A DNA stretch of 32,738 nucleotides from positions 1-32,738 of the forward strand of contig CADCEQ010000041.1 in NCBI GenBank assembly GCA_902800435.1. The letters run 5' to 3'. The notes under the pieces are model-generated. The model was not told the DNA's origin. It did no database searches and was given only the letters and a program-made list of their open reading frames with translations. Both the position numbers and the translations under genes were made by a program. This document shows, piece after piece, positions 8,403 to 31,982 of the stretch; the first letter of the stretch is position 1, and each line of letters opens with the position of its first letter. This DNA is from an uncultured Prevotellaceae bacterium. GTDB lineage: Bacteria > Bacteroidota > Bacteroidia > Bacteroidales > Bacteroidaceae.

Positions 8403-10192
8403 TTTTCAATCCATGCTGCGACCTCGTCTACCGAAGGCTTTTGGAGGTCGAGCTTGAACTTCTTGACGATGTCGCCAATCTTCTGCTGCAGACCCTGGGG
8501 CTTCTCGTCGCGGATGTTCTGGATGAGGTTGAAGCCGGCCTTGCGCAGCACGTAGACCCAGTCTTCGGCAACGCCGATGGCGGCCCACTCCTGGATGGTC
8601 GACTGGGGTGCACGCTTCTCGGGCTTCATCTGCGGGAAGAACAGCACCTCCTGGATGAACGTCTTGCCCGTCATCAGCATCACCAAGCGGTCGATGCCAA
8701 TACCGATACCCGACGTCGGCGGCATACCGTACTGCAGGGCGCGCAGGAAGTCCTGGTCGATGATCATCGCCTCGTCGTCGCCCTTGTCGGCCAGTCGCAT
8801 CTGCTCCTTGAAGCGCTCCTCCTGGTCGATGGGGTCGTTCAGCTCGGAGTAGGCGTTGGCCAGCTCCTTGCCGTTGACCATCAGCTCGAAGCGCTCGGTC
8901 AGTCCGGGCTTCGAGCGGTGCATCTTGGTCAGGGGCGACATCTCAACGGGGTAGTCGGTGATGAACGTCGGCTGTATGAACGTGCCCTCGCAGAACTCGC
9001 CGAATAGTTCGTCAATCAGCTTGCCCTTACCCATCGTCTCGTCGACCTCCATACCTTTCGACAGGCAGAAGGCGCGAATCTCTTCTTCCGTCTTGCCGTC
9101 GCAGTCGAAGCCGGTCTTCTCCTTGATGGCGTCGAGGATGGGCAGCCGGCGGTAGGGTGCCTTGAACGACACGATCTGGCCGTCAATCTCGCGTTCCGTC
9201 GAACCGTTCACGGCAATGCAGACGGTCTCAAGGAGTTTCTCGGTGAACGACATCATCCAGTTGTAGTCCTTGTACTGCACGTAGAGTTCCATACAGGTGA
9301 ACTCGGGGTTGTGGTTGCGGTCCATGCCCTCGTTGCGGAAGTTCTTGCCAATCTCGTAGACACCCTCGAAGCCGCCCACGATGAGGCGCTTCAGGTAGAG
9401 CTCGGTAGCGATGCGCATGAACATATCCTGGTCGAGCGCGTTGAAGTGGGTGATGAACGGACGGGCCGAGGCGCCGCCGGCAATCATCTGCAGCGTCGGT
9501 GTCTCCACCTCGGTATAGCCGGCCTCGTCGAGTACGCGGCGAATGGTGCGGATGACGGTGGCGCGCTGCAGGAACGTGTCCTTCACGCCGTCGTTCACCA
9601 CGAGGTCGACGTAGCGCTGGCGGTAGCGCAGCTCGGGGTCGTCGAACTTGTCGTAGGCCACGCCGTCCTTGTACTTCACGATGGGCAGAGGCTTGAGCGA
9701 CTTCGACAGCAGCGTCAGCTCGTGGGCATGGACGCTGATTTCGCCCGTCTGGGTGCGGAACACCGTTCCGCGCACGCCGATGAAGTCGCCGATGTCGAGC
9801 AACTTTTTGAAGACGACATTATAATAAGCCCCCTCTACGGCCCCCGAGGGGGCTTCATTACCTTGCTGACCGGTCTTGGCGGCAATTGTAGCCCCCTCGG
9901 GGGCGGTGGGGGGGGCTTGCAGGTCGTCTCGGGTGACGTAGACCTGAATACGTCCCTTGGAGTCCTGCAGCTCCACGAACGAGGCCTTGCCCATCACGCG
10001 GCGGCTCATCATACGGCCGGCGATGGATACCTCGCGGGCGGGGGCGTCGTCGCTGAATTCGGCTAAGATGTCGGTTGAAAATGCGTTGGTGGTATACTCT
10101 GCTGCGGGGTAGGGGTTGATGCCCATCCGGCGCAGCTCGTCGAGCGACTGGCGTCGCAGGATTTCTTGTTCGCTAAGTTCTAAAATATTCAT
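8387..10192 (-). CDS. lysS: lysyl-tRNA synthetase, class II, with repeat-derived insert
   Basis: The 601-residue enzyme charges tRNA-Lys. The N-terminal OB fold (REVSIAGRMMSRRVMGKASFVELQDSKGRIQVYV, about 53-86) is followed by the catalytic domain with GGASARPFITHFNALD, motif 2 (FRNEGMDRNHNPEFTCMELY) and motif 3 (GIGIGIDRLVMLMTG). About 70 residues extend past the core, as in related Bacteroidales enzymes. Residues about 92-123, between OB-fold strands, are an Ala/Gly/Pro-rich insert (QAPPTAPEG...EAPSGAVEGAY) encoded by two inverted hairpin elements and their spacer. As I recall them, Bacteroides homologues have only about ten residues there. The frame is intact, so the enzyme is presumably functional. 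Confidence 0.96.
   Translation of the reverse strand: MNILELSEQEILRRQSLDELRRMGINPYPAAEYTTNAFSTDILAEFSDDAPAREVSIAGRMMSRRVMGKASFVELQDSKGRIQVYVTRDDLQAPPTAPEGATIAAKTGQQGNEAPSGAVEGAYYNVVFKKLLDIGDFIGVRGTVFRTQTGEISVHAHELTLLSKSLKPLPIVKYKDGVAYDKFDDPELRYRQRYVDLVVNDGVKDTFLQRATVIRTIRRVLDEAGYTEVETPTLQMIAGGASARPFITHFNALDQDMFMRIATELYLKRLIVGGFEGVYEIGKNFRNEGMDRNHNPEFTCMELYVQYKDYNWMMSFTEKLLETVCIAVNGSTEREIDGQIVSFKAPYRRLPILDAIKEKTGFDCDGKTEEEIRAFCLSKGMEVDETMGKGKLIDELFGEFCEGTFIQPTFITDYPVEMSPLTKMHRSKPGLTERFELMVNGKELANAYSELNDPIDQEERFKEQMRLADKGDDEAMIIDQDFLRALQYGMPPTSGIGIGIDRLVMLMTGKTFIQEVLFFPQMKPEKRAPQSTIQEWAAIGVAEDWVYVLRKAGFNLIQNIRDEKPQGLQQKIGDIVKKFKLDLQKPSVDEVAAWIEKSQAV
9826..9855 (+). repeat. C/G-rich hairpin element, copy A1 (in lysS)
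   Basis: A perfect 10-bp inverted repeat, AAGCCCCCTC (9826-9835) and GAGGGGGCTT (9846-9855), with a 10-base loop. It matches copy A2 (9889-9918, opposite strand) at 26 of 30 positions and faces it across a 33-base spacer. In lysS it is read as EAPSGAVEGAY. Confidence 0.85.
9889..9918 (-). repeat. C/G-rich hairpin element, copy A2 (in lysS)
   Basis: On the minus strand it begins AAGCCCCCCCCACCGCCCCC and ends GAGGGGGCTA. It is the inverted partner of A1 and is read in lysS as QAPPTAPEGA. It contains an internal palindrome GCCCCC-TC-GGGGGC (9891-9904, plus strand). Confidence 0.85.
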
Positions 10193-10223
10193 TTCTATCC
10201 GGATATATGTGCTTTGATGGGTG

Positions 10224-10231
10224 CAAAGTTA
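10224..10231 (-). promoter_or_regulatory. -7 box of the lysS operon
   Basis: TAACTTTG on the minus strand fits TAnnTTTG, 32 bases before the lysS ATG. No convincing TTTG is seen at the -33 position. Confidence 0.55.
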
Positions 10232-10291
10232 CGAATTTCTCTCGAAAAAACGTCCTTTTGGGTAAATAATTGCAAAAAAAACAGCGAAAGT

Positions 10292-10323
10292 TTTGCGGGG
10301 TAGTGGAAAAAGCTATAAATTTG
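10292..10323 (+). promoter_or_regulatory. promoter of menI-menF-menD
   Basis: TTTG at 10292-10295 and TAAATTTG at 10316-10323, spaced 20 bases, form a strong Bacteroidetes promoter. The ATG is at 10334, only ten bases past the -7 box, so the mRNA should have a leader of just a few bases. Confidence 0.75.
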
Positions 10324-10750: not shown

Positions 10751-11802
10751 TGCTATCTGAAGCCTATGCCATCTATCGTCTGCCGTATGACAGTCATGCC
10801 ACGCTCGTCCGCCAGTCGGACGGAAAACCAGCCGAGCTGTTGTCGTGTGTCGACCTCAACAGCCGCAGGGGTTTCGTGATGGCTCCTTTCGAGGTCTCTC
10901 CCGCTCAGCCCATCCTTGTCATCCGTCCCGATGAGGTGTCCCGTATGGAGATACCCTCCGTCCCGGTCCCCATTCCGGCCTCTGTGCCCGAGGCCTCTCC
11001 CGAGGCAGGTCGCTCCTATTACGCCATCGACTTTGCCAACTTCCACGCCCAGCTTATGCAGGGCATGTTCCGCAAGATTGTCCTTGCCCGCTGTGCTGAC
11101 GAATCGATGCCCGCTGAGGCCGACCCACAGCAGCTCTTTTACCGTGCCTGCCAGCTCTATCCCCGAATGTTCATCGCCCTTGTCCATACACCGCAGAGCG
11201 GCACTTGGCTGACGGCGACACCCGAGATTCTGCTCGAAGGCAGCGAACGTCACTGGCGCACCATCGCACTGGCCGGTACGATGAAACTGGAAGGCGACCA
11301 GCTCGACAGCGAGGGCGAGACCGTCACCTGGAGTACCAAGAACATTGAGGAGCAGCGTATCGTTGCCACCTATATTGCCGAGTGTCTGGAGCAGTTCTCG
11401 GCAGACTTCAGCGAGGAAGGGCCGCGCACCGTACGTGCCGCTAATCTGGTGCACCTTCGCAGCGACTTCAACTTCACGCTCCCTACGAACGACCGTATCG
11501 GCGACCTCCTACAGTCGCTTCATCCCACACCCGCCGTCTGCGGACTGCCCAAGCGCGAAGCCTTCCGCTTCATCGTCGGCAACGAGCATACGCCCCGCCG
11601 CTATTACAGCGGTTTTATGGGAATGCTCGACCCGCAGTCAGATACTCACCTCTATGTCTCGCTGCGCTGTATGAACATTGATGGCCACTGCTGTCATCTC
11701 TTTGCCGGAGGCGGCCTTTTGCGCGAGAGTACTGGTGAGCAGGAGTGGCAGGAGACGGAGGCCAAGCTCGAAACGATGCGCCGCCTCCTGAATCGTAAAT
11801 AG
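10750..11802 (+). CDS. menF: isochorismate synthase
   Basis: This chorismate-binding-family enzyme (350 residues) converts chorismate to isochorismate, the first committed menaquinone step. The C-terminal two-thirds carry the family motifs: MFRKIVLARC, TWLTATPEILLEG, TIALAGTMK, STKNIEEQRIV, VRAANLVHLRSDF, LHPTPAVCGLPKREAF and YYSGFMGMLD with a GGGLLRES end. The ATG at 10750 shares its A with the thioesterase stop (TGATG), indicating coupled translation; a GTG three bases upstream is an alternative. Men context favours MenF over a siderophore or salicylate role. Its last codons (AATCGTAAATAG) are already part of a heptamer tandem repeat. Confidence 0.93.
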   Translation: MLSEAYAIYRLPYDSHATLVRQSDGKPAELLSCVDLNSRRGFVMAPFEVSPAQPILVIRPDEVSRMEIPSVPVPIPASVPEASPEAGRSYYAIDFANFHAQLMQGMFRKIVLARCADESMPAEADPQQLFYRACQLYPRMFIALVHTPQSGTWLTATPEILLEGSERHWRTIALAGTMKLEGDQLDSEGETVTWSTKNIEEQRIVATYIAECLEQFSADFSEEGPRTVRAANLVHLRSDFNFTLPTNDRIGDLLQSLHPTPAVCGLPKREAFRFIVGNEHTPRRYYSGFMGMLDPQSDTHLYVSLRCMNIDGHCCHLFAGGGLLRESTGEQEWQETEAKLETMRRLLNRK

Positions 11803-11851
11803 AAAATCGTAAATCGTAAATCGAAAATAGAAAATAGAAAATAGTAAATCC
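11791..11851. repeat. heptamer tandem repeat between menF and menD
   Basis: Eight consecutive 7-mers of form AAT(C/A)G(T/A)A: AATCGTA, AATAGAA, AATCGTA, AATCGTA, AATCGAA, AATAGAA, AATAGAA, AATAGTA, then AATCC. The first two contain the menF stop codon, and the array ends four bases before the menD GTG. Confidence 0.9.
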
Positions 11852-11855: not shown

Positions 11856-13508
11856 GTGTATAGCAATAAGGAAAGCGTCAACCAACTGACGGCTCTGCTC
11901 GTCAAGCACGGCATTCGTCACGCCGTCGTCTGCCCAGGCAGCCGCAATGCCCCCATCGTCCATAACCTGAACGAGTGCCCCGACATCGCGTGCTATCCCG
12001 TTACCGACGAACGGTCGGCGGGATTCTATGCCCTCGGTATGATGCAGGCTCTCGACGAGCCTGTCGCCGTCTGCGTCACCAGCGGTACGGCCTTGCTCAA
12101 CCTGGCCCCAGCCGTTGCTGAGGCTTGGTATCAGCACCAGCCGCTCATCGTTGTCAGTGCCGACCGTCCCGAGGCGTGGATCGACCAGCTCGACGGTCAG
12201 ACGCTGCCGCAACCCGGTGCCCTCGGCCGTTTCGTGCGTCGGGCAGTCTCCCTGCCCGAAACAGATGCTTGGCATTGCAACCGCCTTATCAACGAGGCCC
12301 TGTTGGCTGCCACTGCCGACGATGCCCGCCCCGTCCACATCAATGTGCCCATCAGTGAGCCGCTGTTCACCTTCGACGTGCCTCAGCTGCCTGCTGTCCG
12401 ACAGATTCTCCGTACATCGCCCACTCGCGACTACGACTGTCTCTGTCCCGAGTTCGTCGACGGCCTTTTGGCTGCCCGCCGCCCGATGATTGTCTTCGGC
12501 CAGACCAATCCCCACGACTTCGAGGGCATCGACGTCGAGTTCCTGTTCAGCCACGTCATCGTGCTTCACGAGTCGCTTTCCCCCTTTCCTCATGTGAGTC
12601 ATTTCGATGAAGTTCTCTATCACGGGCAGATGGAACCGCCCGACTTCATCATCCACGTCGGCGACACCGTTGTCAGCAAGCGGTTGCGCCATTTCCTGCG
12701 TAGTGCCGTTGACGCTCAGACGTGGCGCATCAGCCAGTCGGGCGACGTCGAGGATACGTTCCAGAACCTGCGTGGCATTATCGTCGGCGACCCGGAGTCC
12801 GTCCTTCAGTCGCTCAGCCATAAGATAAACCATCGTAAACTGTTGTCGACAAACTACCGCCGCCAATGGCTTGCCGCCTTGACACAAGCCTCCCAGCGTG
12901 CCGCCGACTATCAGCCCGCCTATTCGCAGATGGCTGCCGTGAAGTATTTCGAGGAAAAACTATCCTCCCTCTTCGGGGGGGAGCCAGAGGGGGGCTTCCA
13001 TTACGCCAATTCGTCGGCCATCCGTTTGGCCAATATCTACGCCGCCCACCACGTCTGGTGCAATCGTGGCGTCAATGGCATCGAAGGCTCGCTCTCGACG
13101 GCAGCCGGCTTCTCCTGCGTCACCGACGAGCGCGTCTTCTGCGTCGTCGGCGACCTAAGCTTCTTCTACGACCAAAACGCCCTGTGGAACCAGAACCTGC
13201 GCGGCAACCTCCGCATCCTCCTGCTGAACAACGGTTGTGGCGGCATCTTCAACCTCCTGCATGGTCTGGAACAAAGCCCCGCCCGCGACCGCTTCGTAGC
13301 CGCCGCTCACCAGACCACAGCTGAGGGCATCTGCCGCCAGAACGATGTCGTCTATCTGAAGGCAGAGAATATGGAGGAGATGCAACGGGGCATTGACACC
13401 TTATTAAATATGGAGAGCACGCGCCCCGTTCTCCTTGAAGTCACGACCTATGCCGCCGAAGACGAGCGCGCCTTCAAGGGATATTATAAGACACAGAAGC
13501 AGGAATAA
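11856..13508 (+). CDS. menD: 2-succinyl-5-enolpyruvyl-6-hydroxy-3-cyclohexene-1-carboxylate synthase
   Basis: The 550-residue ThDP-dependent enzyme joins isochorismate and 2-oxoglutarate. Visible motifs are CPGSRNAPIVH, TDERSAGFYALGMMQAL (catalytic Glu of the Pyr domain), VTSGTALLNLAPAVAEA, SADRPEAWIDQLDGQTLPQP and, in the C-terminal ThDP/Mg domain, NRGVNGIEGSLSTAAG, VVGDLSFFYDQNAL and LLNNGCGGIFNLL. The start is a GTG; the sequence after it (MYSNKESVNQLTALL) matches the family N-terminus and no nearer ATG exists. Residues about 369-381 (SSLFGGEPEGGF) come from a hairpin element. The gene ends eight bases from the convergent nucleoside kinase gene. Confidence 0.95.
   Translation: MYSNKESVNQLTALLVKHGIRHAVVCPGSRNAPIVHNLNECPDIACYPVTDERSAGFYALGMMQALDEPVAVCVTSGTALLNLAPAVAEAWYQHQPLIVVSADRPEAWIDQLDGQTLPQPGALGRFVRRAVSLPETDAWHCNRLINEALLAATADDARPVHINVPISEPLFTFDVPQLPAVRQILRTSPTRDYDCLCPEFVDGLLAARRPMIVFGQTNPHDFEGIDVEFLFSHVIVLHESLSPFPHVSHFDEVLYHGQMEPPDFIIHVGDTVVSKRLRHFLRSAVDAQTWRISQSGDVEDTFQNLRGIIVGDPESVLQSLSHKINHRKLLSTNYRRQWLAALTQASQRAADYQPAYSQMAAVKYFEEKLSSLFGGEPEGGFHYANSSAIRLANIYAAHHVWCNRGVNGIEGSLSTAAGFSCVTDERVFCVVGDLSFFYDQNALWNQNLRGNLRILLLNNGCGGIFNLLHGLEQSPARDRFVAAAHQTTAEGICRQNDVVYLKAENMEEMQRGIDTLLNMESTRPVLLEVTTYAAEDERAFKGYYKTQKQE
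12961..12999 (-). repeat. C/G-rich hairpin element, copy B (in menD)
   Basis: On the minus strand it starts GGAAGCCCCCCTCTGGCTCC and continues with C7, GAAGAGGGAGG. The inner inverted repeat CTCCC...GGGAG lies at 12965-12983. It resembles A1/A2 more than C-F. In menD it is read (reverse sense) as LFGGEPEGGF, the same frame as A1 in lysS. Confidence 0.75.
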
Positions 13509-13516: not shown

Positions 13517-15214
13517 TTAATACTTAAAGCTCGACCCACCTACGAACTCGCGCATAATCGAGGTCGGCGGAATCTCCTTGTCGCTGATGGGCAGGAAGTA
13601 GTGGATGAACTTCAGCAGGCGGTGGGCCTCGCTGTATTCCGGGCAGTTCTTCGGCACGCTCGACAGAATCAGCTCGGCGTGGATGCGCAGCACAGCGAAC
13701 TCAATGTTCAGCGCCGAGTTGAACATCACGTCGGCGGTCTCCTGATAGGGGAATATCCACTGCTCCTCGGCCTCGCAGACGTTCTTCCACTGGCTGATGG
13801 TCTGCTGGGCGGTGTAGGCGCCCTTGTTGTAGTCGCGGATGATGCGGCGCAGCAGTCGGTTGTCGCGCACGGGAATCCAGTTGTGGTCGTCGAGCGAGAT
13901 GCTGGTCAGCGCCGAGATGTAGACCTTGTACTTCAGCGAGTCGCTGACCCCCTTGGTCAGCAGCGGGTTCAGGGCGTGGATGCCCTCGATGATGAGCACC
14001 GTGTCGCCCGACAGCCTGAGCCGCTTGCCGTTCCACTCGCGCTTGCCCGTCACGAAGTTGTACTCCGGCACCTCTACCGTCTCGCCCTTCATCAGCCTTG
14101 ACAGGTGCTCGCCCAGCAGCTGGTAGTCGACCGTCTCCACATTGTCGAAGTCGTAGTCGCCGTTGGGCAGCTTCGGCGTGTCCACACGGTTCACGAAATA
14201 GTCGTCCGTTGAGAACGATATCGGCCTCAGACCGCAGGCCAGCAGCTGCACCGACAGTCGCTTGCAGAAGGTGGACTTTCCCGAGCTCGACGGGCCTGTA
14301 ATCAGCACCAGACGTACGGGATTCTTCTTGCGGTGGAAGCGGCGGTCAATCTCCTCGGCTATCTGCACAATCTTCTTCTCCTGCAGGGCCTCCGAGACCT
14401 GAATCAGCTCCGAGGCGTGGCCCCGCATGATGGCCTTGTTCACGTCGCCGGCATTCGACAGCCGCATGATGATGTCCCAGCGCGTCTTCTCGGCAAACAT
14501 CTCGAACGTCTTGGGCTGGTCCACCTTCTCGGCCAGCTTTGTGGGATTGTTCCAGTCGGGTACGCGCAGCAGCAGGCCCTCCTCGTAGCGCTCCAGGCCC
14601 CACACCTTCAGGTAGCCGGCACTGGGTACCAGCGGCCCGTAGTAGTAGTCGACGGTGTCGCCCAGCGTGTAGTAGTCGCTGTAGATCTGTCCGCTGGTCT
14701 CCAGCAGCTTCACCTTGTCCGAGAACCCGCGGTCAGTGAACACGCGGATGGCCTCCTCGTTGGTGGCCTCGGTGCGGCGGAAGGGCATGTCCATATCGAT
14801 GATTTCCTTCATCCTTGCCCTGATGCGCTCCACCATCTCGTCGGTAACCGTCCTCCCCTCCCTTGGGGAGGGGCCGGGGGTGGGCCTGAAGTTACAGTAG
14901 AACCCCCGGCACAGCGAGTGCTCGATGAAGAGCTTGCTCCCGGGGAACAGGTCCTGCGTGGCCTTATAGAGCACGAAGCTCAGTGACCGCACGTAGGCGC
15001 GGTGGCCGCTTCCCTCGCGGGCGTCCAGGAATTCTACGTCGCGGTTCTGGAACAGGCGGAACTTCAGTCCCTGCGACACGTTGTTCACCTTTGCCGACAC
15101 CACGGGGTACGGCAGCTTGATTTCGTCCTGGAACTCCTGGTAGACGTCCAGCAGCGAGCACCCCTCGGGGAAACTCTTCGTCGTGTTTGTATTCTTACAG
15201 CGTATTTGTAGCAT
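13517..15214 (-). CDS. nucleoside kinase: TGS/tRNA-SAD/uridine kinase fusion
   Basis: A 565-residue three-part protein. Residues 1-65 resemble the TGS domain of threonyl-tRNA synthetase, and about 70-200 its second additional domain (HSLCRGFYCNF, then an AIRVFTDRGFSDKVKLL segment). Residues about 280-480 are a phosphoribulokinase/uridine kinase domain with P-loop GPSSSGKST, DDYFVNR, DYDFDNVETVDY and IEGIHALNPLL. This architecture is known in Bacteroidetes, Clostridia and Thermotogae, and the kinase part phosphorylates a nucleoside such as uridine. Residues about 110-121 (RPTPGPSPREGR) are encoded by a hairpin element. It is downstream of and codirectional with the hydrolase gene (13-base gap). 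Confidence 0.9.
   Translation of the reverse strand: MLQIRCKNTNTTKSFPEGCSLLDVYQEFQDEIKLPYPVVSAKVNNVSQGLKFRLFQNRDVEFLDAREGSGHRAYVRSLSFVLYKATQDLFPGSKLFIEHSLCRGFYCNFRPTPGPSPREGRTVTDEMVERIRARMKEIIDMDMPFRRTEATNEEAIRVFTDRGFSDKVKLLETSGQIYSDYYTLGDTVDYYYGPLVPSAGYLKVWGLERYEEGLLLRVPDWNNPTKLAEKVDQPKTFEMFAEKTRWDIIMRLSNAGDVNKAIMRGHASELIQVSEALQEKKIVQIAEEIDRRFHRKKNPVRLVLITGPSSSGKSTFCKRLSVQLLACGLRPISFSTDDYFVNRVDTPKLPNGDYDFDNVETVDYQLLGEHLSRLMKGETVEVPEYNFVTGKREWNGKRLRLSGDTVLIIEGIHALNPLLTKGVSDSLKYKVYISALTSISLDDHNWIPVRDNRLLRRIIRDYNKGAYTAQQTISQWKNVCEAEEQWIFPYQETADVMFNSALNIEFAVLRIHAELILSSVPKNCPEYSEAHRLLKFIHYFLPISDKEIPPTSIMREFVGGSSFKY
14852..14889 (-). repeat. C/G-rich hairpin element, copy C (in nucleoside kinase gene)
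   Basis: On the minus strand it reads CAGGCCCACCCCCGGCCCC and onward. Stem CCCCTCCC (14855-14862), loop TTG, GGGAGGGG (14866-14873) is perfect. The plus strand at 14865-14884 is a canonical four-run G-quadruplex motif. The core CCCACCCCC-NN-CCCCTCCC is shared with copy E, and both are translated as RPTPxPS. Confidence 0.85.
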
Positions 15215-21581: not shown

Positions 21582-22528
21582 CCGAATGGCACAACGACAG
21601 TCCGACGGTGCTGGTGCATACCAGCGGCTCGACGGGCAAGCCGAAGCCGATGTGGGTCGAGAAGCGGCGCATGGAGGCTTCGGCGCGGATGACGTGCGAC
21701 TTCCTCGGACTGCGTGAGGGCGACACGGCGCTGCTGTGCCTGCCGCTTGACTATATTGCCGGGAAGATGGTGGTGGTGCGGTCGCTGGTTAGGGGGCTGA
21801 GGCTGGTCTGCGTGGAGCCCAGCGGAGAACCGCTGGGCACGGAGACGGACCGGATTGATTTCGCGGCGATGGTGCCGATGCAGGTGTGGAACTCGCTGCG
21901 GGTGCCGGAGCAGCGGGAGCGGCTGATGCGGATACGCCAGCTCATCGTCGGCGGCGGTGCCATCGACGACGCACTGGCCCGTGAACTGGTCGGCCTTCCC
22001 AACCAGATATGGAGCACCTACGGCATGACAGAGACCTTGTCGCATATAGCGCTGCGGCGCCTCAACGGGCCGGAGGCCAGCGAGTGGTACACACCGTTTG
22101 CTGGTGTCACGCTGTCGCAGACCGCTGAGGGCTGTCTCGTCATCGACGCGCCCGCCGTCTACGACGGACAACTCATAACCAACGACATCGCAGAACTCGC
22201 CAATGACGGGCGTTTCAAGATTCTCGGTCGCAAAGACAACGTTATCTGTTCTGGTGGGTTGAAGATTCAGGCTGAGGAGGTAGAACGGCTGCTTAGTGCT
22301 CATTTGCGCGAACCTTTTATCATTACGAAGCGGCGCGATGAGAAGTTTGGCGAGGTGGTTGTGCTGCTGACTGAGGGCGACACCGCTGCCGCCAAAACCA
22401 TCAGCGAGCAAGTGCTGCCCAAATATTGGCAGCCGCGTGCATACGTCCATACAGACCGCATTCCCTTGACGGCCACAGACAAACCTGCCCGCCGCCAAGC
22501 CGAACAAATAGCAAAAAACAACGCTTAA
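21560..22528 (+). CDS. menE: o-succinylbenzoate-CoA ligase (short form)
   Basis: The 322-residue AMP-forming ligase activates o-succinylbenzoate with CoA. The P-loop-like motif is HTSGSTGKPKPMWVEK, and further ANL motifs are STYGMTETLSHIA, GQLITNDIAEL, FKILGRKDNVICSGGLKIQAEEVE and the C-terminal catalytic-lysine region LTATDKPARRQA. It lacks the first ~100 residues of longer MenE proteins, which is usual in Bacteroidetes. The start is GTG at 21560, inside menC, giving MDLKEFLAEWHNDSP. Its stop overlaps the convergent aroB stop by four bases (TTAA). Confidence 0.94.
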   Translation: MDLKEFLAEWHNDSPTVLVHTSGSTGKPKPMWVEKRRMEASARMTCDFLGLREGDTALLCLPLDYIAGKMVVVRSLVRGLRLVCVEPSGEPLGTETDRIDFAAMVPMQVWNSLRVPEQRERLMRIRQLIVGGGAIDDALARELVGLPNQIWSTYGMTETLSHIALRRLNGPEASEWYTPFAGVTLSQTAEGCLVIDAPAVYDGQLITNDIAELANDGRFKILGRKDNVICSGGLKIQAEEVERLLSAHLREPFIITKRRDEKFGEVVVLLTEGDTAAAKTISEQVLPKYWQPRAYVHTDRIPLTATDKPARRQAEQIAKNNA

Positions 22529-23574
22529 AGACCTTCGCGATAGAAGTCGAGGGCTTCTTCAATCTCCTGCGTCGTGGCTGTCTGGTTGATGCGTATGTCG
22601 CCGACGTCACCCAGCAGGGTGAAGTTGATGTCGTCAAGCAGGGTGGGGTAGTCGTCGCAGGTGATGGGCATGCGGCCGTAGTGGTCGAGGATGAACCGCA
22701 CGGTCTGGCGCATCTTGTCAGTGGGGAAGCCCGTCTTGATACAGCTGAGGTAGAGCTCGCAGACCAGGCCGTAGGCAACGGCATAGCCGTGCAGTACAGG
22801 AGCCTCCCCCTGCCCCCTCCGAAGAGAGGGGGTTCTTAGAGCCAACGACTCGAAAGCGTGGCCGACGGTGTGGCCAAGGTTCAGGGCCTTGCGCAGGCCC
22901 CGCTCCATCGGGTCTTCCTCGACGATGCGCTCCTTCACCTTCACCGAGTCTTCGAGCATGCGGCTCAGTTGGTAGTAGTCGATGATGTCGAGGTCGAACG
23001 TCAGCAGCTCTGCCCACATCCCGCTGTCGGAACTTATCAGCCCGTGCTTCAGCATCTCAGCGTAGCCCGACAGGATATTCTCGTGGTCGAGCGTTCGCAG
23101 GAAGGTGGTGTCGAGGATGACGCTGCGGGCCGTGCTGAATACTCCAATCTCATTCTTCAGTCCGCCGAAGTTGATGCCCGTCTTGCCGCCTACCGAGGCA
23201 TCGACCATTGCCAGCAGCGTGGTGGGGATGTTGATGTAGTTGAGTCCGCGCTTGAACGTCGAGGCCGCGAAGCCGCCGAGGTCGGTCACCATACCGCCGC
23301 CGAGGTTCACCATCAGCGAGTGGCGGGTGGCGCCGCCCTGCTGCAGGCACGTCCACACGTGGCTGAGCGAGTCGAGCGTCTTATGGCTGTCGGTGGCTCC
23401 GATGGTGATGATTTCAGCACCGCGCAGGCAGTCGAAACCCGCGACGACGGGCAGACACAGCTGTTCCGTCGTCTCGTCTACTAATATAAATGTACGGTCG
23501 CGCTCGCATTCCTCGACCGCTGTGGTCACTGCTGTCTCCAGTTTAGTTGATATGATAACCTTCTGCTTTTCCAT
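22525..23574 (-). CDS. aroB: 3-dehydroquinate synthase
   Basis: The 349-residue NAD- and metal-dependent enzyme catalyses the second shikimate step. Signatures: NLGGGMVTDLGGFAASTFKRG, NIPTTLLAMVDASVGGKTGIN, the metal-ligand Glu in SGYAEMLKHGL, and the His ligands in LNLGHTVGHAFE and LHGYAVAYG. The ATG at 23574 (MEKQKVIIS) is chosen; the frame runs 90 codons further upstream, but across the promoter and into the divergent gene. Residues about 246-259 (RTPSLRRGQGEAP) are encoded by a hairpin element placed between the two His-ligand segments. The product feeds chorismate, the substrate of MenF. Confidence 0.95.
   Translation of the reverse strand: MEKQKVIISTKLETAVTTAVEECERDRTFILVDETTEQLCLPVVAGFDCLRGAEIITIGATDSHKTLDSLSHVWTCLQQGGATRHSLMVNLGGGMVTDLGGFAASTFKRGLNYINIPTTLLAMVDASVGGKTGINFGGLKNEIGVFSTARSVILDTTFLRTLDHENILSGYAEMLKHGLISSDSGMWAELLTFDLDIIDYYQLSRMLEDSVKVKERIVEEDPMERGLRKALNLGHTVGHAFESLALRTPSLRRGQGEAPVLHGYAVAYGLVCELYLSCIKTGFPTDKMRQTVRFILDHYGRMPITCDDYPTLLDDINFTLLGDVGDIRINQTATTQEIEEALDFYREGL
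22800..22838 (+). repeat. C/G-rich hairpin element, copy D (in aroB)
   Basis: Plus strand begins GAGCCTCCCCCTGCCCCCTC; stem CCCCCTC (22813-22819), loop CGAAGA, GAGGGGG (22826-22832). The TCCCCCTGCCCC core is shared with copy F. aroB reads it in reverse as PSLRRGQGEA, the same frame as F in the S4 gene (PLPHREGQGES). Confidence 0.8.
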
Positions 23575-23582
23575 AACGGCGG

Positions 23583-23590
23583 CAAAATTA
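23583..23590 (-). promoter_or_regulatory. -7 box of aroB
   Basis: TAATTTTG on the minus strand fits TAnnTTTG, eight bases before the aroB ATG, so this mRNA would be leaderless or nearly so. No clear -33 element. Confidence 0.4.
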
Positions 23591-23671
23591 AAAAAAATAA
23601 TTGAAAAACGTTTCAGTTCATTAAACTTTTCTTTCGCTCTAACGTCAGAAAGGAGTAAATGTAACTTTTTT

Positions 23672-26600
23672 ATGAAAAAAATTCTACTATTCATGCTCGT
23701 CGTTTTGACGACATCATCAACCGCCTTAGCACAACGCACCGTTAGCGGAAAAGTTATTGAACAGGATTCCAGAGAGGCCGTCATCCAGGCCACAGTTGCC
23801 CTGCTGAAGAGCGACTCGTCGTTAGTCACCAATGCTGTCACCAATATGGACGGCCAGTTTAAGATGACAGCCCCGAGGGACGGCAGCTACATCGTCCGTG
23901 TTACTTACGTAGGCTTCAAGACCTACACCAAGAGTGTCACTGTCAGCGGCGGCAAGCCTGTCGCCATGGGCACCATCTCGCTGGCTCCCGATGCCATCAT
24001 GCTGAAGGGCGTCACGGCTACGGCCCACGTGGCCAAGGTGCAGTCGAAGGGCGACACCTTAATATATAATGCCGATGCCTACCGCACGCCGGAGGGTTCC
24101 GTCGTTGAGGAACTGGTGAAGCGCCTGCCGGGTGCCGAGGTCGACGACAATGGTAACATCAAGATCAACGGTAAGCAGGTGACGAAGATTAAGGTCGACA
24201 ACAAGGAGTTCGGCGATGCCCAGACAGCACTGAAGAACCTGCCTACCAGCATCATCGAGCGTATCCGCGCCTACGACGAGAAGAGCGACCTGGCCCGTAT
24301 CACGGGTATCGACGACGGTAACGAGCAGACCGTGCTCGACTTCGGACTGCGTGCCGGCATGAACCGCGGAACGATGGCCAATGCCGACCTGGCTGCGGGT
24401 ACGAAAGACCGTTATGCCGCTCGCCTGTTTGGCATGATGATGCGCGGCGACCATCGCCTGATGGGTATGCTCAACGCCAACAACACCAACGACATGGGCT
24501 TCGGCGGCGGTGGCGGCCGTGGCTTCGGTGGTGGTCGTGGCATGGGTGGCGGCGGTCTGAACGCTGCCAAGTCGGGTATGCTCAACTACAACTACGAGAA
24601 GACAGACCTCCTCATTGCTCAGGCCAGCGTGAACTGGAACCATCGCGATGGCGACACCTGGTCGCGCCGCTCAAGCGAGAACTTCGTGGGTGGTCAGACC
24701 AGCTCATTCCAGAACTCCGTCAACCAGAGTTATTCTCGCTCGAACAACTGGAGCGCCAACGGTCGCATTGAGTGGACGCCCGATACGCTGTGGAACATCA
24801 GCTTCCGTCCCCAACTCAGCTATGGCACCAACGACGGAACGGGCAACAATCTCTCGGCCTCATTCAACAGTGATCCCTATAGCTTATTAGACACTCAGAT
24901 AGGAACTGCTGTGCTGCAGGAGATTATCTCTAAAAGTGGCGGCTATGGTCTCGACTCCATCCTCGTCAACGCCACCAGCAACCGCTCTCTCTCCTACGGT
25001 GAGAACAAGCGTTTGGGTGGTACCTTAATGGTTAACCGCCTGCTCAATGGGCGTGGACGCAACATCACCCTCCAGTTGAGCGGTAACTACAGCGATAACG
25101 AGAACCAACAGCTGTCGAGCAACTATACGAAACTATTCAGGGGAACGCAGTCTTTCAATGGTCACAGAGGTCTCACAAACTATCAGACCAACCGCTATAA
25201 CCTGTCGCCGACCACGTCGTATGACTACAGCGCGCGTGCTACCTATAGCGAACCTATCGCCTACGCAACGTTCCTGCAGTTCAGCTATACCTTCCAATAT
25301 CGCTATAACGAGAGCGACCGTCAGACGTATGACTACTCTCAGCCTCGGCCATTTGCCATAGACCCTGACCCCACTCACGGCTTCATGCTCAATGATGTTA
25401 ATCCCAGCTATCGCCACTGGAGTGAGTATTTCGACAGAATCGGCCAAGGCTACAGCCCAACCTATGGCGACCAGTACTACACGAAGGACCAGAGCCGCTA
25501 CTCGGCTTACAAGAACTTCATTCACACGGGTGAAATCATGCTGCGCTTTATCCGCAATACCTACGACTTTAATGTCGGTGTCCAGGTTATTCCGCAGAGT
25601 TCAGAATATACCCAGCGCTACTTGGGTGTTGACACCGTCGTCAACCGTACCGTCACTAACTGGAGCCCGACGGCTAACTTCCGCTGGCGCTTCAATCAGC
25701 AGGGCCAGCTGCGCTTCGAGTATCGTGGTAGCACCAGCCAGCCTTCCATTGAACAGCTGCTTGATATCAACGATGATACCAACCCCATGAACAAGACAAG
25801 GGGTAATCCCGACTTGAAGCCCTCGTTCACGCAGTCGTTCAACCTGCGCTTCAACAACTATATCATGAACCACCAGCGCTTCATCAATGCCAATGCCAAC
25901 TTCTCGATGACGTCGAACAGCATTGCCAACATGGTGAAATATGATGCGGCAACAGGTGCACGTGAGACGCGCCCCGAGAACATCAACGGCAACTGGAATG
26001 CTGGTGGTAACATCATGTGGAGTTCAGCTATCGACTCACTTGGCTACTTCAGCTACAATGTATCGGTGAACGACAACTATAACCACCGCATCAGCTACCT
26101 GTTCCAGAATAACGAGAACGTGCGCAACGTCACCAACACCAACAACTTCGGTGGACGCCTTGGCACCAGCTACCGTAACGACTGGCTTGAAGTGGAGCTT
26201 AACGGTTCGGCCAACTACCAGCGTACACGTAACGAACTGCAGCCCCAGTCTGACCTTGACACATGGAGCTTCGCCTACGGCTTTAACTCGACGTTCACCC
26301 TGCCTTGGGGCACGCAGATTGCTACCGACATGGGTATGAACAGTCGTCGTGGTTACAACGACGCTTCGATGAACACCAACGAGCTTATCTGGAACGCTCA
26401 GATTGCTCAGAGCTTCCTGCAGGGTCGTCCCCTTACCGTCTCGCTGCAGTTCTACGACATCCTCGGACAGCAGTCGAACTTCTCGCGTACGATTTCTGAC
26501 ATGGCCCGTACTGATAACGAGTACAATGCCATTACCAGCTACGCTATGCTGCACGTCATCTACCGCATCAACCTATTTGGTACCCGCGAGGCCCGTCGTG

Positions 26601-26776: not shown

Positions 26777-26791
26777 TTAAAGAGATAATTA

Positions 26792-26829
26792 AGCAAGAGG
26801 GCTTCGGATGCGTCCGAAGCCCTCTTGCT
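26792..26829. terminator. long perfect hairpin, probable bidirectional terminator
   Basis: A 17-bp perfect stem, AGCAAGAGGGCTTCGGA (26792-26808) and its complement (26813-26829), with loop TGCG, sits between convergent genes. Flanks are A/T-rich but without a clean T-run on either strand, so termination is likely rather than certain. Confidence 0.7.
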
Positions 26830-26838
26830 GTAGTATTC

Positions 26839-27285
26839 TTATTCCTGTTCCTTGCGGTCGTCGATGTTATCGCCCTCGGTAGGTTTCATCTCTTCCTCGA
26901 AGTCGGTGATGCCGGCCTCAATGAGGATGTTATACCACTGTATGAGCTTCTGGATGTGTGAATTCTTCACGCGGTCGCGGTCCCACTCGGGTAGCACTTT
27001 GGTGAAGTATTCGTGCAGTTCGTCAGCAGAGGCTTTCTTGGGGTCGATGCTGGCCTTTTTGCCGTCCTCCAGCTTCTTGACGCTTTCGAGGATGGTCATC
27101 AGGGGGACATCGTCGGTCTCAGTGAACATGGCGATGTCGGCCAGTGATGTTATACGGTCGGTGCCGAAAGCTGGCTGGCGACGGTGGGTGGCGTCGAGAG
27201 CCTCGACGATAAGGTTGTTCTTTCCACGTGAAATCAGTTTGTAGAGGCCGGGTTTGCCGGCGATTGCTAAGATTGTCTGTTGCAT
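26839..27285 (-). CDS. DUF5606 family protein
   Basis: The 148-residue cytosolic protein has the family's N-terminal pattern ILAIAGKPGLYKLISRGKNNLIVEALD, then SLADIAMFTETDDVPL, a helical part ASADELHEYFTKVLPEWDRDRV and IQKLIQWYNILIEAGITDF, and an acidic tail. DUF5606 is Bacteroidetes-specific, with a small N-terminal beta domain and no assigned function. It overlaps the 3' end of coaE by 19 bases and is last in the nusB-yajC-ybbR-coaE unit. Its ATG is immediately preceded by an octamer repeat array. Confidence 0.9.
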   Translation of the reverse strand: MQQTILAIAGKPGLYKLISRGKNNLIVEALDATHRRQPAFGTDRITSLADIAMFTETDDVPLMTILESVKKLEDGKKASIDPKKASADELHEYFTKVLPEWDRDRVKNSHIQKLIQWYNILIEAGITDFEEEMKPTEGDNIDDRKEQE

Positions 27286-27854
27286 TTTTCTTTTTGTTTT
27301 ATTTTCGATGTTTCGATGTTTTGGGATAACGAGTGAATGATGTCGTCGATCTGCTTGTCGATGTCTTGCTGTCCGTCGTTGACGATTTCGTAGTCGGCTA
27401 ACTGACGGACTTTATCCTGCGGCCACTGGCGGGCTATCCACTGCAAGGCTTGCTCCCTGGTGATGTTGTCGCGTCGCATGATGCGCTTAATACGTACTTC
27501 TTCAGGAGCAGTGACCACGACAACGCGGTCGACGTAGCGGTCTGCCCCCGACTCGTACATAATGGCTGATTCGAGCCAGTCGAGGCCACTGTCCAAGAAG
27601 TCGGCGAAGACGGCGGGGTGAACGATGGCGTTGATAGCCCGCTGGTTGTCCTCGCTGGCCAGAAGGAAACGGCTGATGGCTGCTTTGTCGAGCGAACCGA
27701 TGAGCTCGGTCAACTGCTGGCGCAACTCAGGCGAGGTGCGCATCAGTCGTTTGGCTGCTGTGTCGCAGTCGTAGACCGTGATGCCACGGGCGGCTAAGCG
27801 TGCCGCTACGTAGCTCTTGCCACTGCCGATGCCTCCGGCTATACCGATTTTCAT
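27267..27854 (-). CDS. coaE: dephospho-CoA kinase
   Basis: The 195-residue enzyme makes the last step of coenzyme A synthesis. P-loop GGIGSGKS is at residues 7-14, YDCDTAAKRLM follows, then a family segment INAIVHPAVFADF, the ESGADRYVDRVVVVTAPEEVRIKR core and RDNITREQALQWIARQWPQ. The last ~20 residues are encoded by an octamer tandem repeat and are Lys/Gln-rich (ETSKIKQKEKCNRQS), probably a non-conserved tail. The start overlaps the ybbR stop by four bases (ATGA). Confidence 0.96.
   Translation of the reverse strand: MKIGIAGGIGSGKSYVAARLAARGITVYDCDTAAKRLMRTSPELRQQLTELIGSLDKAAISRFLLASEDNQRAINAIVHPAVFADFLDSGLDWLESAIMYESGADRYVDRVVVVTAPEEVRIKRIMRRDNITREQALQWIARQWPQDKVRQLADYEIVNDGQQDIDKQIDDIIHSLSQNIETSKIKQKEKCNRQS
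27285..27324. repeat. octamer tandem repeat in coaE tail, upstream of DUF5606 gene
   Basis: Plus-strand octamers: TTTTTCTT, TTTGTTTT, ATTTTCGA, TGTTTCGA, TGTTTTGG. It abuts the DUF5606 ATG (27283-27285). On the coding strand it is A-rich (AAACATCG units) and also encodes the end of CoaE. Confidence 0.75.
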
Positions 27855-28879: not shown

Positions 28880-29126
28880 TCTTCACGTCTACGGTGTTCT
28901 TTGCCAGGTCGATGCTCTTAACAGTGCCGTGAACACCGCCGCCGACGATGACATCGGCGCCCTCGGTGAGAGAGTTCTGGAACTTCTGGATTTCCTTCTG
29001 CTTCTTCTGCTGAGGCTTAATCATGAAGAACCACATGATGGCGAAAATGGCCACCATCATCAGAATCATCGACATGCCGCTGCCGTTTCCCTGTGCTGCC
29101 TGTGCAGCTAAAATAATCTGTGTCAT
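28788..29126 (-). CDS. yajC: preprotein translocase subunit YajC
   Basis: The 112-residue inner-membrane protein, an accessory of the Sec-SecDF complex, has one transmembrane helix (MSMILMMVAIFAIMWFFMI) followed directly by the hallmark KPQQKKQKEIQKF. The C-terminal small beta domain follows: LTEGADVIVGGGVHGTVKSID, ARDVVITVDKTYVFKDM. It lies 36 bases after nusB, with an octamer array filling that gap. Its 3' end is overlapped by ybbR in another frame. Confidence 0.95.
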   Translation of the reverse strand: MTQIILAAQAAQGNGSGMSMILMMVAIFAIMWFFMIKPQQKKQKEIQKFQNSLTEGADVIVGGGVHGTVKSIDLAKNTVDVKIARDVVITVDKTYVFKDMANTPQTNQELSV

Positions 29127-29127
29127 T

Positions 29128-29159
29128 TTGTTTCGTTATTTCGTTGTTTTATTGTTTCG
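29128..29159. repeat. octamer tandem repeat between nusB and yajC
   Basis: Four plus-strand octamers: TTGTTTCG, TTATTTCG, TTGTTTTA, TTGTTTCG. The array fills the junction from near the nusB stop (29163-29165) to one base before the yajC ATG (29124-29126). Confidence 0.85.
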
Positions 29160-29162
29160 ATG

Positions 29163-30107
29163 TTAATTGGCCGGTCTGTCGTCCATGCGCTTCATCAGCC
29201 TGCCGCTCTTGATGAGGTGGCGGGCGATGGCGTCGAGCATGCCGTTGATATAGCTTCCGCTCTTCGGCGTGGAGTAGAGCTTGGCTATGTCTACAAACTC
29301 ATTGATGGTAACGCTCACCGGGATTGAGGGGAAGGTCATCATCTCGGCAATGGCTATCTGCATAATGATGAGGTCCATGTAAGGCATGCGCGATAAATCC
29401 CAGTTGCGCGAGGTCTCGCTCATGTAGTGCTGGTACTCATCGCCATTGAGTATCGAGGCGCGGAACAGTTTGCGGGCATAGTCCTTGTCCTCTTCATTGT
29501 CGTACTCGGGCAGCAGTTCCTGGCGGGCACCGTTCTGCTCGTCGAAGCGCTTGATAGTCTTCAGTACGAAGGTGTCGACAATCTCCTTATCGTCATTCCA
29601 GTAGAGACTCTGCTCTTCAAATAGGTCGTCGAGGTCGGGGTTGTCCTGAATGAGTGTCCTGTAGATTTTGCGCCAGAGCTCGCGGTCTGTGCCGTAGTTG
29701 TCATCCGGGTTACTCATGTAATCCTTGTAAATCTCGCTTTGCTCAATCAGTTCGTAGAGTTTGCCTACGAATTCCGGGTGGTCGGCCCAGGTTTGCTTCT
29801 GGTTGCTGATGAAGTCGCAAAGCTGCTTGTTTTCTTCAAGCTGTAATGTAAAGCGGTTATATGCAAAGCGTGTCGAAGGAACCTTCGTCCCCTCGCGACG
29901 TGCCTTGCCCTCAGCTATCTCCAGGCGTCTCTTCGCCTCTTTCGCAACAGCCACCATCAGCGCCAGCAGATAGTTGTACAGGTCGTAAGCCTTTGAAAGG
30001 CTGAACAACAGTTCTTTCTCAGCAGAGTCGATGTTCTTGTTGCCGTTTTGATAGTACGCATAGGTTAACTGGACAATCTTGATGCGTATAATTTCACGAT
30101 TAATCAT
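29163..30107 (-). CDS. nusB: transcription antitermination factor NusB, long Bacteroidetes form
   Basis: The 314-residue protein begins MINREIIRIKIVQLTYAYYQNG, the NusB-type first helix. The C-terminal third is the canonical NusB helical core (RMPYMDLIIMQIAIAEMMTFPSIPVSVTINEFVDIAKLYSTPKSGSYINGMLDAI). The middle insertion explains the length, about twice that of E. coli NusB and usual in this phylum. It should bind boxA RNA with NusE for rRNA antitermination. The ATG at 30107 is chosen; the frame extends 18 codons upstream across the promoter. First gene of the nusB-yajC-ybbR-coaE-DUF5606 unit. Confidence 0.92.
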   Translation of the reverse strand: MINREIIRIKIVQLTYAYYQNGNKNIDSAEKELLFSLSKAYDLYNYLLALMVAVAKEAKRRLEIAEGKARREGTKVPSTRFAYNRFTLQLEENKQLCDFISNQKQTWADHPEFVGKLYELIEQSEIYKDYMSNPDDNYGTDRELWRKIYRTLIQDNPDLDDLFEEQSLYWNDDKEIVDTFVLKTIKRFDEQNGARQELLPEYDNEEDKDYARKLFRASILNGDEYQHYMSETSRNWDLSRMPYMDLIIMQIAIAEMMTFPSIPVSVTINEFVDIAKLYSTPKSGSYINGMLDAIARHLIKSGRLMKRMDDRPAN

Positions 30108-30161: not shown

Positions 30162-30189
30162 GAAAAACGCACTTTTTTTGTAATTTTTT

Positions 30190-30217
30190 CAATTGTCAAT
30201 TGTCAATTATCAATTTT
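30190..30217. repeat. heptamer tandem repeat at the rplY promoter
   Basis: CAATTGT, CAATTGT, CAATTAT, CAATTTT: four 7-mers that contain the probable -33 TTG of rplY. A change in unit number would alter the sequence at and above the -33 site. Confidence 0.8.
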
Positions 30218-30231
30218 TCTTCGTACCTTTG
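30200..30231 (+). promoter_or_regulatory. promoter of rplY-pth
   Basis: TACCTTTG (30224-30231) fits TAnnTTTG, with TTG at 30200-30202 spaced 21 bases. The leader to the ATG is about 80 bases and contains small inverted repeats around GCTTTTCGCGAAAAAGC (30237-30253) and CACACCGTGTG (30253-30263). Confidence 0.7.
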
Positions 30232-30315
30232 CACCCGCTTTTCGCGAAAAAGCACACCGTGTGATGGTGAATTAACAACAAACCAAGTATTAATTTAGAG
30301 TAACACAACAACGTT

Positions 30316-30918: not shown

Positions 30919-30926
30919 TCTGTTAT

Positions 30927-31532
30927 ATGGATAAGTATTTGATTGTTGGGCTGGGGAATCCGGGCGACGAGTACGCCACGACCCGCCACAATACAGGCTA
31001 CATGGTGTTGGACGCTTTTGCTAAGGCGTCCAATACTGTTTTCAGCGACCGCCGCTACGGCTATGTCGCTGAGACGTCGCTGAAGGGACGTAAGGTGGTG
31101 CTGCTGAAGCCCACCACGTACATGAACCTCAGCGGCAATGCCGTGCGCTATTGGCTCAACAAGGAGAACATCGACCAGCAGCGGCTGCTCGTCGTCAGCG
31201 ACGATGTGGCCCTGCCTCTCGGTCAGTTCCGTCTGAAGGCCGGCGGCTCGAACGGCGGCCACAACGGTCTGGGGCATATCCAGCAGCTCATCGGTCAGAA
31301 CTATGCCCGTCTGCGCATGGGCATCGGCAACGACTACCCTCAGGGCGGGCAGATTGACTGGGTGCTTGGCAGCTATAGCGAGGACAACCTGCGCCAGCTG
31401 CAGCCCGCCATTGATACCGCCGTCGAGATCATCCGCAGCTTCGTGCTGGCCGGCATCGACATCACGATGAATCAGTTTAATAAGTTAGGCAAAAGACCCA
31501 CCCCCAACCCCTCCCTGAATGGAGGGGAGTGA
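30927..31532 (+). CDS. pth: peptidyl-tRNA hydrolase with repeat-derived C-terminus
   Basis: The 201-residue enzyme recycles peptidyl-tRNAs. Signatures: [23 protein letters not shown] with the catalytic His, [40 protein letters not shown] and RLRMGIG. The conserved fold ends near MNQFNKLGK. The last dozen residues ([12 protein letters not shown]) and the TGA stop itself lie inside hairpin element E, so the element has replaced or extended the native end. The S4-domain gene begins 12 bases after the stop. Confidence 0.96.
31493..31532 (+). repeat. C/G-rich hairpin element, copy E (pth 3' end)
   Basis: The core CCCACCCCCAACCCCTCCC (31497-31515) is nearly identical to copy C. Stem CCCCTCC (31508-31514) pairs with GGAGGGG (31521-31527). 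The minus strand at 31497-31515 is a four-run G-quadruplex motif. It supplies the pth stop and faces copy F across 39 bases. Confidence 0.85.
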
Positions 31533-31544
31533 ATACCTGCTGAG

Positions 31545-31982
31545 ATGAAAGACAAGAGCGTAAATGGAGTATCTTCTCCCCTCCCTCACAGGGAGGGGCA
31601 GGGGGAGAGTCTTGCGCGTTTAGACAAATGGCTTTGGGCGTCGCGCATCTTCAAGACGCGCACCATTGCTGCCGACGCCTGCAAGAATGGCCGCGTCACG
31701 GTGAACGACGTGCTGGTCAAACCGTCGCGCATGGTGAAGGTGGGCGATGTCATCGGCGTGCGCAAGCCGCCCGTCACCTACACCTTCCGCATCCTGAAGA
31801 CCATTGAGCAGCGTGTGGGGGCCAAGCTGCTGCCGGAAATCTACGAGAACATCACCACGCCCGATCAATACGAACTATTGGAAATGAACCGCATCAGCGG
31901 TTTCGTCGACCGCCAGCGCGGCACCGGTCGTCCCACGAAGAAGGAGCGCCGCGCTATGGATGCATTTTTGAATGATGAATAA
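31545..31982 (+). CDS. S4-domain RNA-binding protein, Hsp15-like
   Basis: The 145-residue protein has an S4 RNA-binding domain (about 25-85: ARLDKWLWASRIFKTRTIAADACKNGRVTVNDVLVKPSRMVKVGDVIGV), an HslR/Hsp15 pattern, then a basic C-terminal helix (RGTGRPTKKERRAMDAFL). Hsp15 binds stalled 50S subunits carrying peptidyl-tRNA, which fits its place after pth. Homologues as I recall them start just before RLDKW; here about 24 extra residues precede it, and residues 10-22 (SPLPHREGQGES) come from hairpin element F. The ATG at 31545 is the only in-frame start. Stop and next ATG are one base apart. Confidence 0.9.
   Translation: MKDKSVNGVSSPLPHREGQGESLARLDKWLWASRIFKTRTIAADACKNGRVTVNDVLVKPSRMVKVGDVIGVRKPPVTYTFRILKTIEQRVGAKLLPEIYENITTPDQYELLEMNRISGFVDRQRGTGRPTKKERRAMDAFLNDE
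31573..31613 (-). repeat. C/G-rich hairpin element, copy F (S4 gene 5' end)
   Basis: On the minus strand it starts AAGACTCTCCCCCTGCCCCT. Plus-strand stem CCCCTCCC (31578-31585), loop TCACA, GGGAGGGG (31591-31598) is perfect. It is inverted relative to copy E and lies within the first codons of the S4 gene, so the mRNA hairpin is close to the start codon. Confidence 0.85.

Follow-up and report, generated by a model that had tools for sequence, protein, structure and literature searches.

The 32,738-nucleotide (nt) stretch of contig CADCEQ010000041.1 from an uncultured Prevotellaceae bacterium, analysed as a whole and called the window below, carries seven units of a short C-rich palindromic element in five insertions within or across the ends of housekeeping genes. 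We consider it likely that these are elements of the repetitive extragenic palindrome (REP) and REP doublet forming hairpins (REPIN) type, probably spread by a transposase in trans. Copies are dispersed, fall into subtypes that vary from genome to genome, form doublets with a preferred orientation, are present or absent at orthologous sites, lack target-site duplications and preserve the reading frame within genes.

The element in the window

A first-pass annotation of the window had described seven palindromic copies of two subtypes in housekeeping genes. All seven inverted repeats were recovered, in place or nearby. The window yielded 10 strand hits for exact C-rich hairpins with 7-nt arms; 200 simulated windows (trinucleotide-Markov) averaged 0.04 and never exceeded 2, and the strict pattern had no match in 1.96 Mb of simulated sequence. 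The units are as follows:

9826..9857, + strand: A1, outer unit of the lysS doublet; A-type, with C-run, 4 nt and GCCCCC-GA-GGGGGC
9887..9918, - strand: A2, inverted partner of A1
12960..12998, - strand: B, single unit in menD; third subtype, with the hairpin CCCCCCTC-TGG-CTCCCCCCC; resembles one copy in locus L008
14846..14884, - strand: C, single unit in the kinase gene, sense relative to its host; peptide PTPGPSPREG
22797..22840, + strand: D, single unit in aroB, antisense to its host; peptide TPSLRRGQGE
31494..31533, + strand: E, left unit of the pth-S4 doublet; supplies the pth tail (12 residues) and stop (GAG TGA)
31534..31569, + strand: spacer of the pth-S4 doublet; contains the S4 start codon (31545)
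31570..31613, - strand: F, right unit of the pth-S4 doublet; peptide PLPHREGQGES in the S4 N-terminus

Seven is the correct number of units. They represent only five insertions, since A1-A2 (lysS) and E-F (pth/S4) are inverted doublets that each fold as one, beside the singles in menD, the kinase gene and aroB. Three subtypes describe the units better than two, with B set apart from A1/A2. The doublet A1-A2 is predicted as one long hairpin of -65.2 kcal/mol (z -7.0), and E-F likewise as one of -66.2 kcal/mol (z -6.1), each equalled by none of 200 shuffles; the predicted folding of the singles B, C and D was no better than that of many shuffles of their own bases. The host genes are:

8387..10192, - strand: lysS (lysine--tRNA ligase), passing the NCBIfam cut-off; open across A1-A2
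11856..13508, + strand: menD, MenD passing the NCBIfam cut-off
13517..15214, - strand: uridine-kinase/PRK-family protein, host of C; passing the Pfam PRK/uridine-kinase family only
22525..23694, - strand: aroB, AroB passing Pfam and below the NCBIfam cut-off; start at 23694 from a codon-usage gene finder
30927..31532, + strand: pth, Pth passing the NCBIfam cut-off
31545..31982, + strand: S4-domain protein, passing the Pfam S4 domain; Hsp15-like below cut-off

The reading frames of all these hosts stay open, as had been noted. In lysS, a short loop of the N-terminal (OB-fold) portion is replaced by A1 and A2 together, and E-F straddles a gene junction, with E terminating pth and F lying within the S4 N-terminus. 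The window thus shows three outcomes of insertion (gene end, gene start, loop or linker) and no purely intergenic copy.

Anatomy of units and doublets

Across relatives the family has a common architecture of a C-run, a few nt, a C-rich hairpin and a short tail. Units of the main subtype measure 40-50 nt and read about RAAR-CCCACCCCC-NN-CCCCTCCC-loop-GGGAGGGG-AGTTTGGTTAG. In genome G015, with 85 copies, the order from outside inward is an A/G-rich flank, CCCACCC(CC), 2-3 variable bases, the hairpin and a conserved tail of about AGTTTGGTTAG or ATGTTTATAGATAA; one subtype carries the T-rich tail ATGTTTTTATAG.

The units occur alone or as inverted doublets with their C-runs facing outward, and in the predicted fold of a doublet the second C-run pairs with its partner run. 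Among 32 neighbour pairs within 300 bp in G015 the orientation was +- in 21, ++ in 6, -- in 5 and -+ in none, and smaller samples gave +- 5 and ++ 1 (G142) and +- 2 and -+ 1 (G005). Inverted doublets with a preferred orientation are characteristic of REPs and REPINs, as are numerous dispersed copies of a short GC-rich palindrome. The spacer within a doublet measures anything from about 40 to more than 400 nt, and mostly only the ends are common to different doublets; one group of doublets in G017 has spacer and flanks in common too. No target-site duplication was detected in 36 doublets, where 4- or 5-nt matches occurred in 5, the same as for shuffled flanks. This is again the REP/REPIN condition, and differs from that of miniature inverted-repeat transposable elements (MITEs) of DDE-type insertion sequences.

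Spread of the family among relatives

Relatives were retrieved with the MenD of the window and are mostly rumen Prevotellaceae assemblies, the first ten being 77-82% identical. For the main subtype they were searched with the exact pattern CCCACCC-N(0-5)-CCCTCCC-N(2-12)-GGGAGGG, which misses diverged copies, and with the reversed pattern as control. Copies were found in 16 of 20 relatives, with up to 99 copies per genome and at least 29 in 12 of the 20. In the wider samples, the family was represented by 151 genomes, 31 of them with matches (up to 138 copies), and the phylum by 395, 37 of them with matches; G005 is among these 37, and the others have at most 18 copies each. The control was zero in every genome listed from the three samples. 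The proposed check of genome copies against chance, run on the relatives, therefore gave more copies than chance and did not refute the family.

The A-type pattern of lysS (CCCCCC-N-GCCCCCNNGGGGGC) matched in 11 of 20 relatives, with no match of its reversed control; its copy counts are inflated, since two gap lengths can match one place. Loop and run lengths vary from genome to genome, as expected for lineage-specific expansions.

Filled and empty sites at orthologous loci

Among 80 loci of relatives, the insertion site was covered in 52 for lysS, 80 for menD and 27 for the kinase gene. The lysS insert was present in one of the 52 (L005). It has no counterpart in E. coli LysU, where the alignment passes from residue 103 to 106 and the query from 91 to 121. 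About 10% of bases differ between the lysS genes of the window and L005, with none of 90 differing in the bin that holds most of the insert and a single difference in one further 90-base bin. Recent exchange, a recently shared insertion or constraint could each account for this pattern. Of the 27 relatives covering the kinase site, L001, L032 and L018 have a similar insert and L043 an altered one, and the sequences of L002 and L009 possibly hold a decayed insert or scar.

Insert B was found in none of the 80 relatives for menD, and insert D in none of 23 aligned aroB loci from 20 genomes. Several relatives (e.g. L396, L398) carry other short inserts in the aroB loop of D. Taken together, the aroB and menD loops of D and B hold other short in-frame repeat-like inserts in L396, L398, L026, L045, L063 and L073, so both loops look insertion-tolerant in general.

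At the pth-S4 junction a doublet is found in the window and in two of 21 relatives (G002 and G001, the latter with another subtype) and in none of the other 19. The junction of G003, scored as empty, contains a CCCACCCC stretch without hairpin, perhaps a doublet remnant. L379 and L380 hold, between pth and the S4 gene, long arrays in which a GACATGAGTACAGGAGTACAATTTA-like repeat gives way to its counterpart in inverted orientation. Comparison of the lysS-gpsA junction covered 49 of 50 loci with both genes. Six of the 49 relatives contain doublets (L001, L003, L004, L005, L006 and, with another subtype, L012); none was found in the 43 others or in the window.

The FtsY of G015 contains a doublet without counterpart in any of the 18 further orthologues found, all shorter by 49-58 residues. 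These come from 21 other genomes, of which G006, G008 and G037 gave only a weaker match, probably to a paralogue. The insert peptide recurs in open frames with 22 matches in G015 and 17 in G011, counts that also cover the FtsY protein itself, a paralogue and sites read twice, once per strand. Orthologues sharing the inserted residues at the same places had been named as a possible refutation; run on the relatives, this comparison did not refute the insertions either. With so many sites empty in sequenced relatives, the question of how a mobile hairpin can enter an essential gene and leave its host viable becomes testable.

Placement inside and outside genes

Inspection of all 85 copies in G015 placed 56 between genes, 28 within called genes and 1 at a 5' end, while 86.8% of the sampled DNA, i.e. 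the loci fetched around these copies, is coding. Another training set gave an in-gene count of 30. Over loci pooled across genomes, 55 of 155 main-subtype copies lay in called genes and 100 outside. Gene calls in relatives came from a simple codon-usage finder whose starts may err, so that copies near starts may be miscounted as inside; the placement row of G017 was left unused, since L023 and L209/L210 are the same contig and places were counted twice. The family avoids genes overall, yet about one third of its copies are in genes. The picture of a palindromic family in housekeeping genes accordingly stands as to dispersal, in-frame insertion in essential genes and presence/absence, but these genes are not its main or only place. 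The absence of purely intergenic copies likewise holds within the window, and the copies of relatives are mostly intergenic.

Ten of 18 hosts in G015 were scanned for domains: RecG, LigA, Mfd (two doublets), MetH, FtsY, DnaG, an OEP-type efflux protein, a VapE-domain protein, an ABC-type ATPase and a hybrid two-component protein. Pfam matches stand on either side of the insert in RecG, MetH, FtsY, the hybrid protein and at one of the two Mfd sites; in LigA and DnaG a domain match is split by it. The six doublets wholly within one G015 gene measure 111, 111, 123, 135, 135 and 225 nt, all divisible by three, compared with 4 of 10 intergenic doublets.

Within G015, 9 of 10 sense copies (PTPxPSPREG) and 15 of 18 antisense copies (mostly PLPWGGxGGG) are read in one codon phase. 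Pooling over genomes and subtypes gave sense counts of 11, 5 and 3 and antisense counts of 22, 12 and 2 for the three phases, a weaker bias; phases are not strictly comparable between subtypes, as differing run lengths give differing phases. We rejected a fixed reading phase as a general law, because it holds within one genome and weakens on pooling. One predominant phase per orientation, as in G015, would point to selection on the element itself for harmless peptides. Of six A-type copies in the pooled loci, five are inside called genes, each of them encoding APSGAxGG as the lysS of the window does. What the units encode is most likely a linker that the host protein tolerates, without functional role. 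Some Pro/Gly/Arg runs (PTPxPSPREG, PLPWGGxGGG, APSGAVGGA) are thereby explained as repeat-encoded, which is useful for annotation.

Doublets at gene starts

In the S4 gene of the window, no in-frame start codon separates unit F from the conserved RLDKW, and synthesis of the S4 protein would therefore require translation of F. The start codon at 31545 occupies the apical loop of the predicted doublet hairpin. At the lysS-gpsA junction of relatives, doublets of two subtypes share one junction and give GpsA a new N-terminus. The downstream unit would be read as a new N-terminus in the S4 protein, in GpsA of relatives and in several called G015 genes.

In several cases the first spacer codons resemble native ones (M-x-D; M-T-D or M-D at lysS-gpsA and pth-S4). 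These short matches give the impression that at both junctions the original start codon is flanked by the two units. If so, the doublet would have arisen from two insertions or from an inverted copy of one unit, not from a ready-made doublet.

Search for a mobilising transposase

Searches for Y1_Tnp and related proteins covered overlapping sets of 20, 151, 151, 301 and 34 genomes and returned several Y1 families. Several genes resembling group 4 of the REP-associated tyrosine transposases (RAYTs) are flanked by GTAG-tagged GTAGGGGC...GCCC repeats (L131/L284 of G015, L288-L295), and two of YIHQNP type have GGGGAC-type repeats alongside.

The protein family of alignment A1 (not to be confused with unit A1) is Y1_Tnp (HUH) transposase-like, about 340-500 amino acids long and encoded at L267, L268, L270, L271, L314-L316 and L353-L372. 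Its proteins have a conserved C-terminal part of about 150 residues matched by no Pfam model. Matches were obtained in 26 of 34 genomes, a chosen set with 14 picked for carrying the element, with up to 10 per genome, some of them weak, fragmentary or to other Y1 types. Several of the genes have a TTGCTGT...ACAGCAA palindrome both upstream and inside the gene. The C-run hairpin lay near 2 of 20 scanned loci and near one locus added because a copy was known there. The matches in 26 of 34 genomes made the family look promising as mobiliser, but its own genes carry the TTGCTGT...ACAGCAA repeats and the C-run hairpin is near few of its loci.

Some Y1 genes in G142, G019, G037, G098, G012, G112 and G076 have a C-run hairpin within about 1.1 kb, while most do not; variant hairpins lie near Y1 genes in G192 and G220. 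In G037 (C13) the C-run hairpin stands on both sides of one Y1 gene. Other repeats lie closer to the Y1 genes.

Weighing the REP/REPIN assignment

That a Y1 enzyme mobilises the units in trans is a reasoned guess. Units would spread as single-stranded hairpins through a Y1/HUH transposase acting in trans, either present or since lost, and selection would then filter the insertions. Copies would persist between genes; at gene ends, if a unit provides the stop; at gene starts, if the start codon remains in the spacer of the doublet; and within loops or linkers, provided that the copies are open and a multiple of three.

Several points weigh against this assignment. The searches identified no cognate transposase, and none of the Y1 families found is proven as a partner; where the flanks of Y1 families were compared, other repeats adjoin them. 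The genomes G109, G168, G103 and G085 (32, 23, 13 and 11 copies) gave no match to PF01797, though they may be incomplete, and the same four and G017 bear the element with no match to the commonest Y1 family. No GTAG, GTGG or CGTC tag was found at the foot of the hairpin, where one side reads NN and the other mostly AGTT/ATGT, with GTGG only within the outer run. Native residues are replaced and not simply interrupted in lysS and at pth-S4. At two junctions the start codon of the host seems to lie within the doublet, which insertion of a ready-made doublet in one step does not explain. All the evidence is comparative, mostly from draft assemblies, and movement was not observed.

Possible, though rather improbable, is a coding-compatible REP family with gene starts as its niche, in which paired units bracket ribosome-binding site and start codon, the start codon lies in the loop of a stem of more than 60 kcal/mol (computed for the S4 gene of the window only) and the downstream unit becomes a new N-terminus.

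That the hosts keep the structures as regulatory RNA or DNA (bidirectional terminators, mRNA stabilisers or translation-start hairpins), with in-gene copies as by-products, is unlikely. Two thirds of the G015 copies are intergenic, often directly after a stop codon, both doublets of the window are very stable predicted hairpins, several doublets bracket start codons and one subtype has the T-rich tail. The sites differ between close relatives, however, one third of the copies lie within genes, TTTT occurs within 12 nt past the stem in only 7 of the 85 G015 copies, and Rfam gave nothing in the window at gathering scores.

Very doubtful is a G-quadruplex or i-motif element, in which the second run would be kept because it gives the G strand of the main subtype four G-tracts (GGGAGGGG-NN-GGGGGTGGG). 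Tract length varies by subtype while four tracts persist (CCCACCCAAGCCCTCCC versus CCCACCCCCAACCCCTCCC), but four tracts are selected by the search pattern itself, four separate tracts of three are missing from D and F of the window, the tracts of A1/A2 and B are fewer and longer, and in doublets the second run is, besides, paired with its partner. An origin as MITEs of a DDE-type insertion sequence would account for short elements with inverted ends in many copies; it is hardly credible given 36 doublets without target-site duplication and their range of spacers, 40 to more than 400 nt. Chance GC-rich sequence, slippage or assembly artefact, suggested by low complexity, mostly metagenomic assemblies and other short repeats in the same loops, has next to no probability in view of the simulations, the copies in genomes with megabase contigs (G112, G076) and the same sites filled in separate assemblies (pth-S4, lysS-gpsA).

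Other repeats in the window

Short A/T-rich direct repeats, several with 7-8 bp periods, lie in or near intergenic gaps at 1025-1072, 11786-11848, 27279-27320 and 29115-29172. A hairpin with 24-bp arms between convergent genes (26785-26836) is probably a bidirectional terminator.

Comparison with known systems

In-gene placement is reportedly also a feature of the small dispersed repeats of cyanobacteria, small mobile repeats attributed to Elhai et al. In open-licence papers we recognised no description of the present family, which does not show its absence in print.

The likeness to Rickettsia palindromic elements (RPEs) drawn by the first-pass annotation is supported as to in-frame insertion in essential genes, the two being likened by description. 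In contrast to RPEs, the present family is mostly intergenic, and RPE-1 is longer according to the sections of PMC3733652 on which we draw. The same annotation had known no named equivalent in Prevotella-like bacteria; the name REP/REPIN exists for this kind of element, and REPs lying inside genes for replication and repair have been published (PMC3733652, in those sections).

As portrayed there, REPs are mostly intergenic, often near gene ends, supply stop codons and form dimers; many intragenic ones lie in DNA synthesis and repair genes, including DNA ligase, and in tRNA synthetases, and CGTC REPs have no dedicated transposase. The present family resembles these GTAG/CGTC REPs and REPINs or bacterial interspersed mosaic elements (BIMEs) in size, hairpin, occurrence as singles and inverted dimers, mostly intergenic position and frequent proximity to gene ends. 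As with REPs, some copies lie in genes (DNA repair, DNA ligase, tRNA synthetase), dimers encode 20-30 residues and units give stops. It differs from the REPs of that source in having no GTAG/CGTC tag, an extra C-run beside the hairpin, a Bacteroidota host and no identified RAYT.

Subclass 2.4 of TnpA-REP (RAYT group 4) is abundant in Cyanobacteria and Bacteroidetes and has in-frame REPs inside TnpA-REP genes, as stated in the portion of PMC6006769 used here. The present family shares with it the Bacteroidetes host and REPs in frame within a gene, which for subclass 2.4 is the transposase's own. It differs in that the group-4-like RAYTs found here most evidently adjoin GTAGGGGC...GCCC repeats and not the C-run element. 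Since the REP picture of PMC3733652, as far as drawn on, is matched in most respects except tag, second C-run and host phylum, we file the element as REP/REPIN-like. It is neither a proven RAYT-dependent REP nor a Rickettsia element, and adds a lineage abundant in gut and rumen to those with intragenic REP elements.

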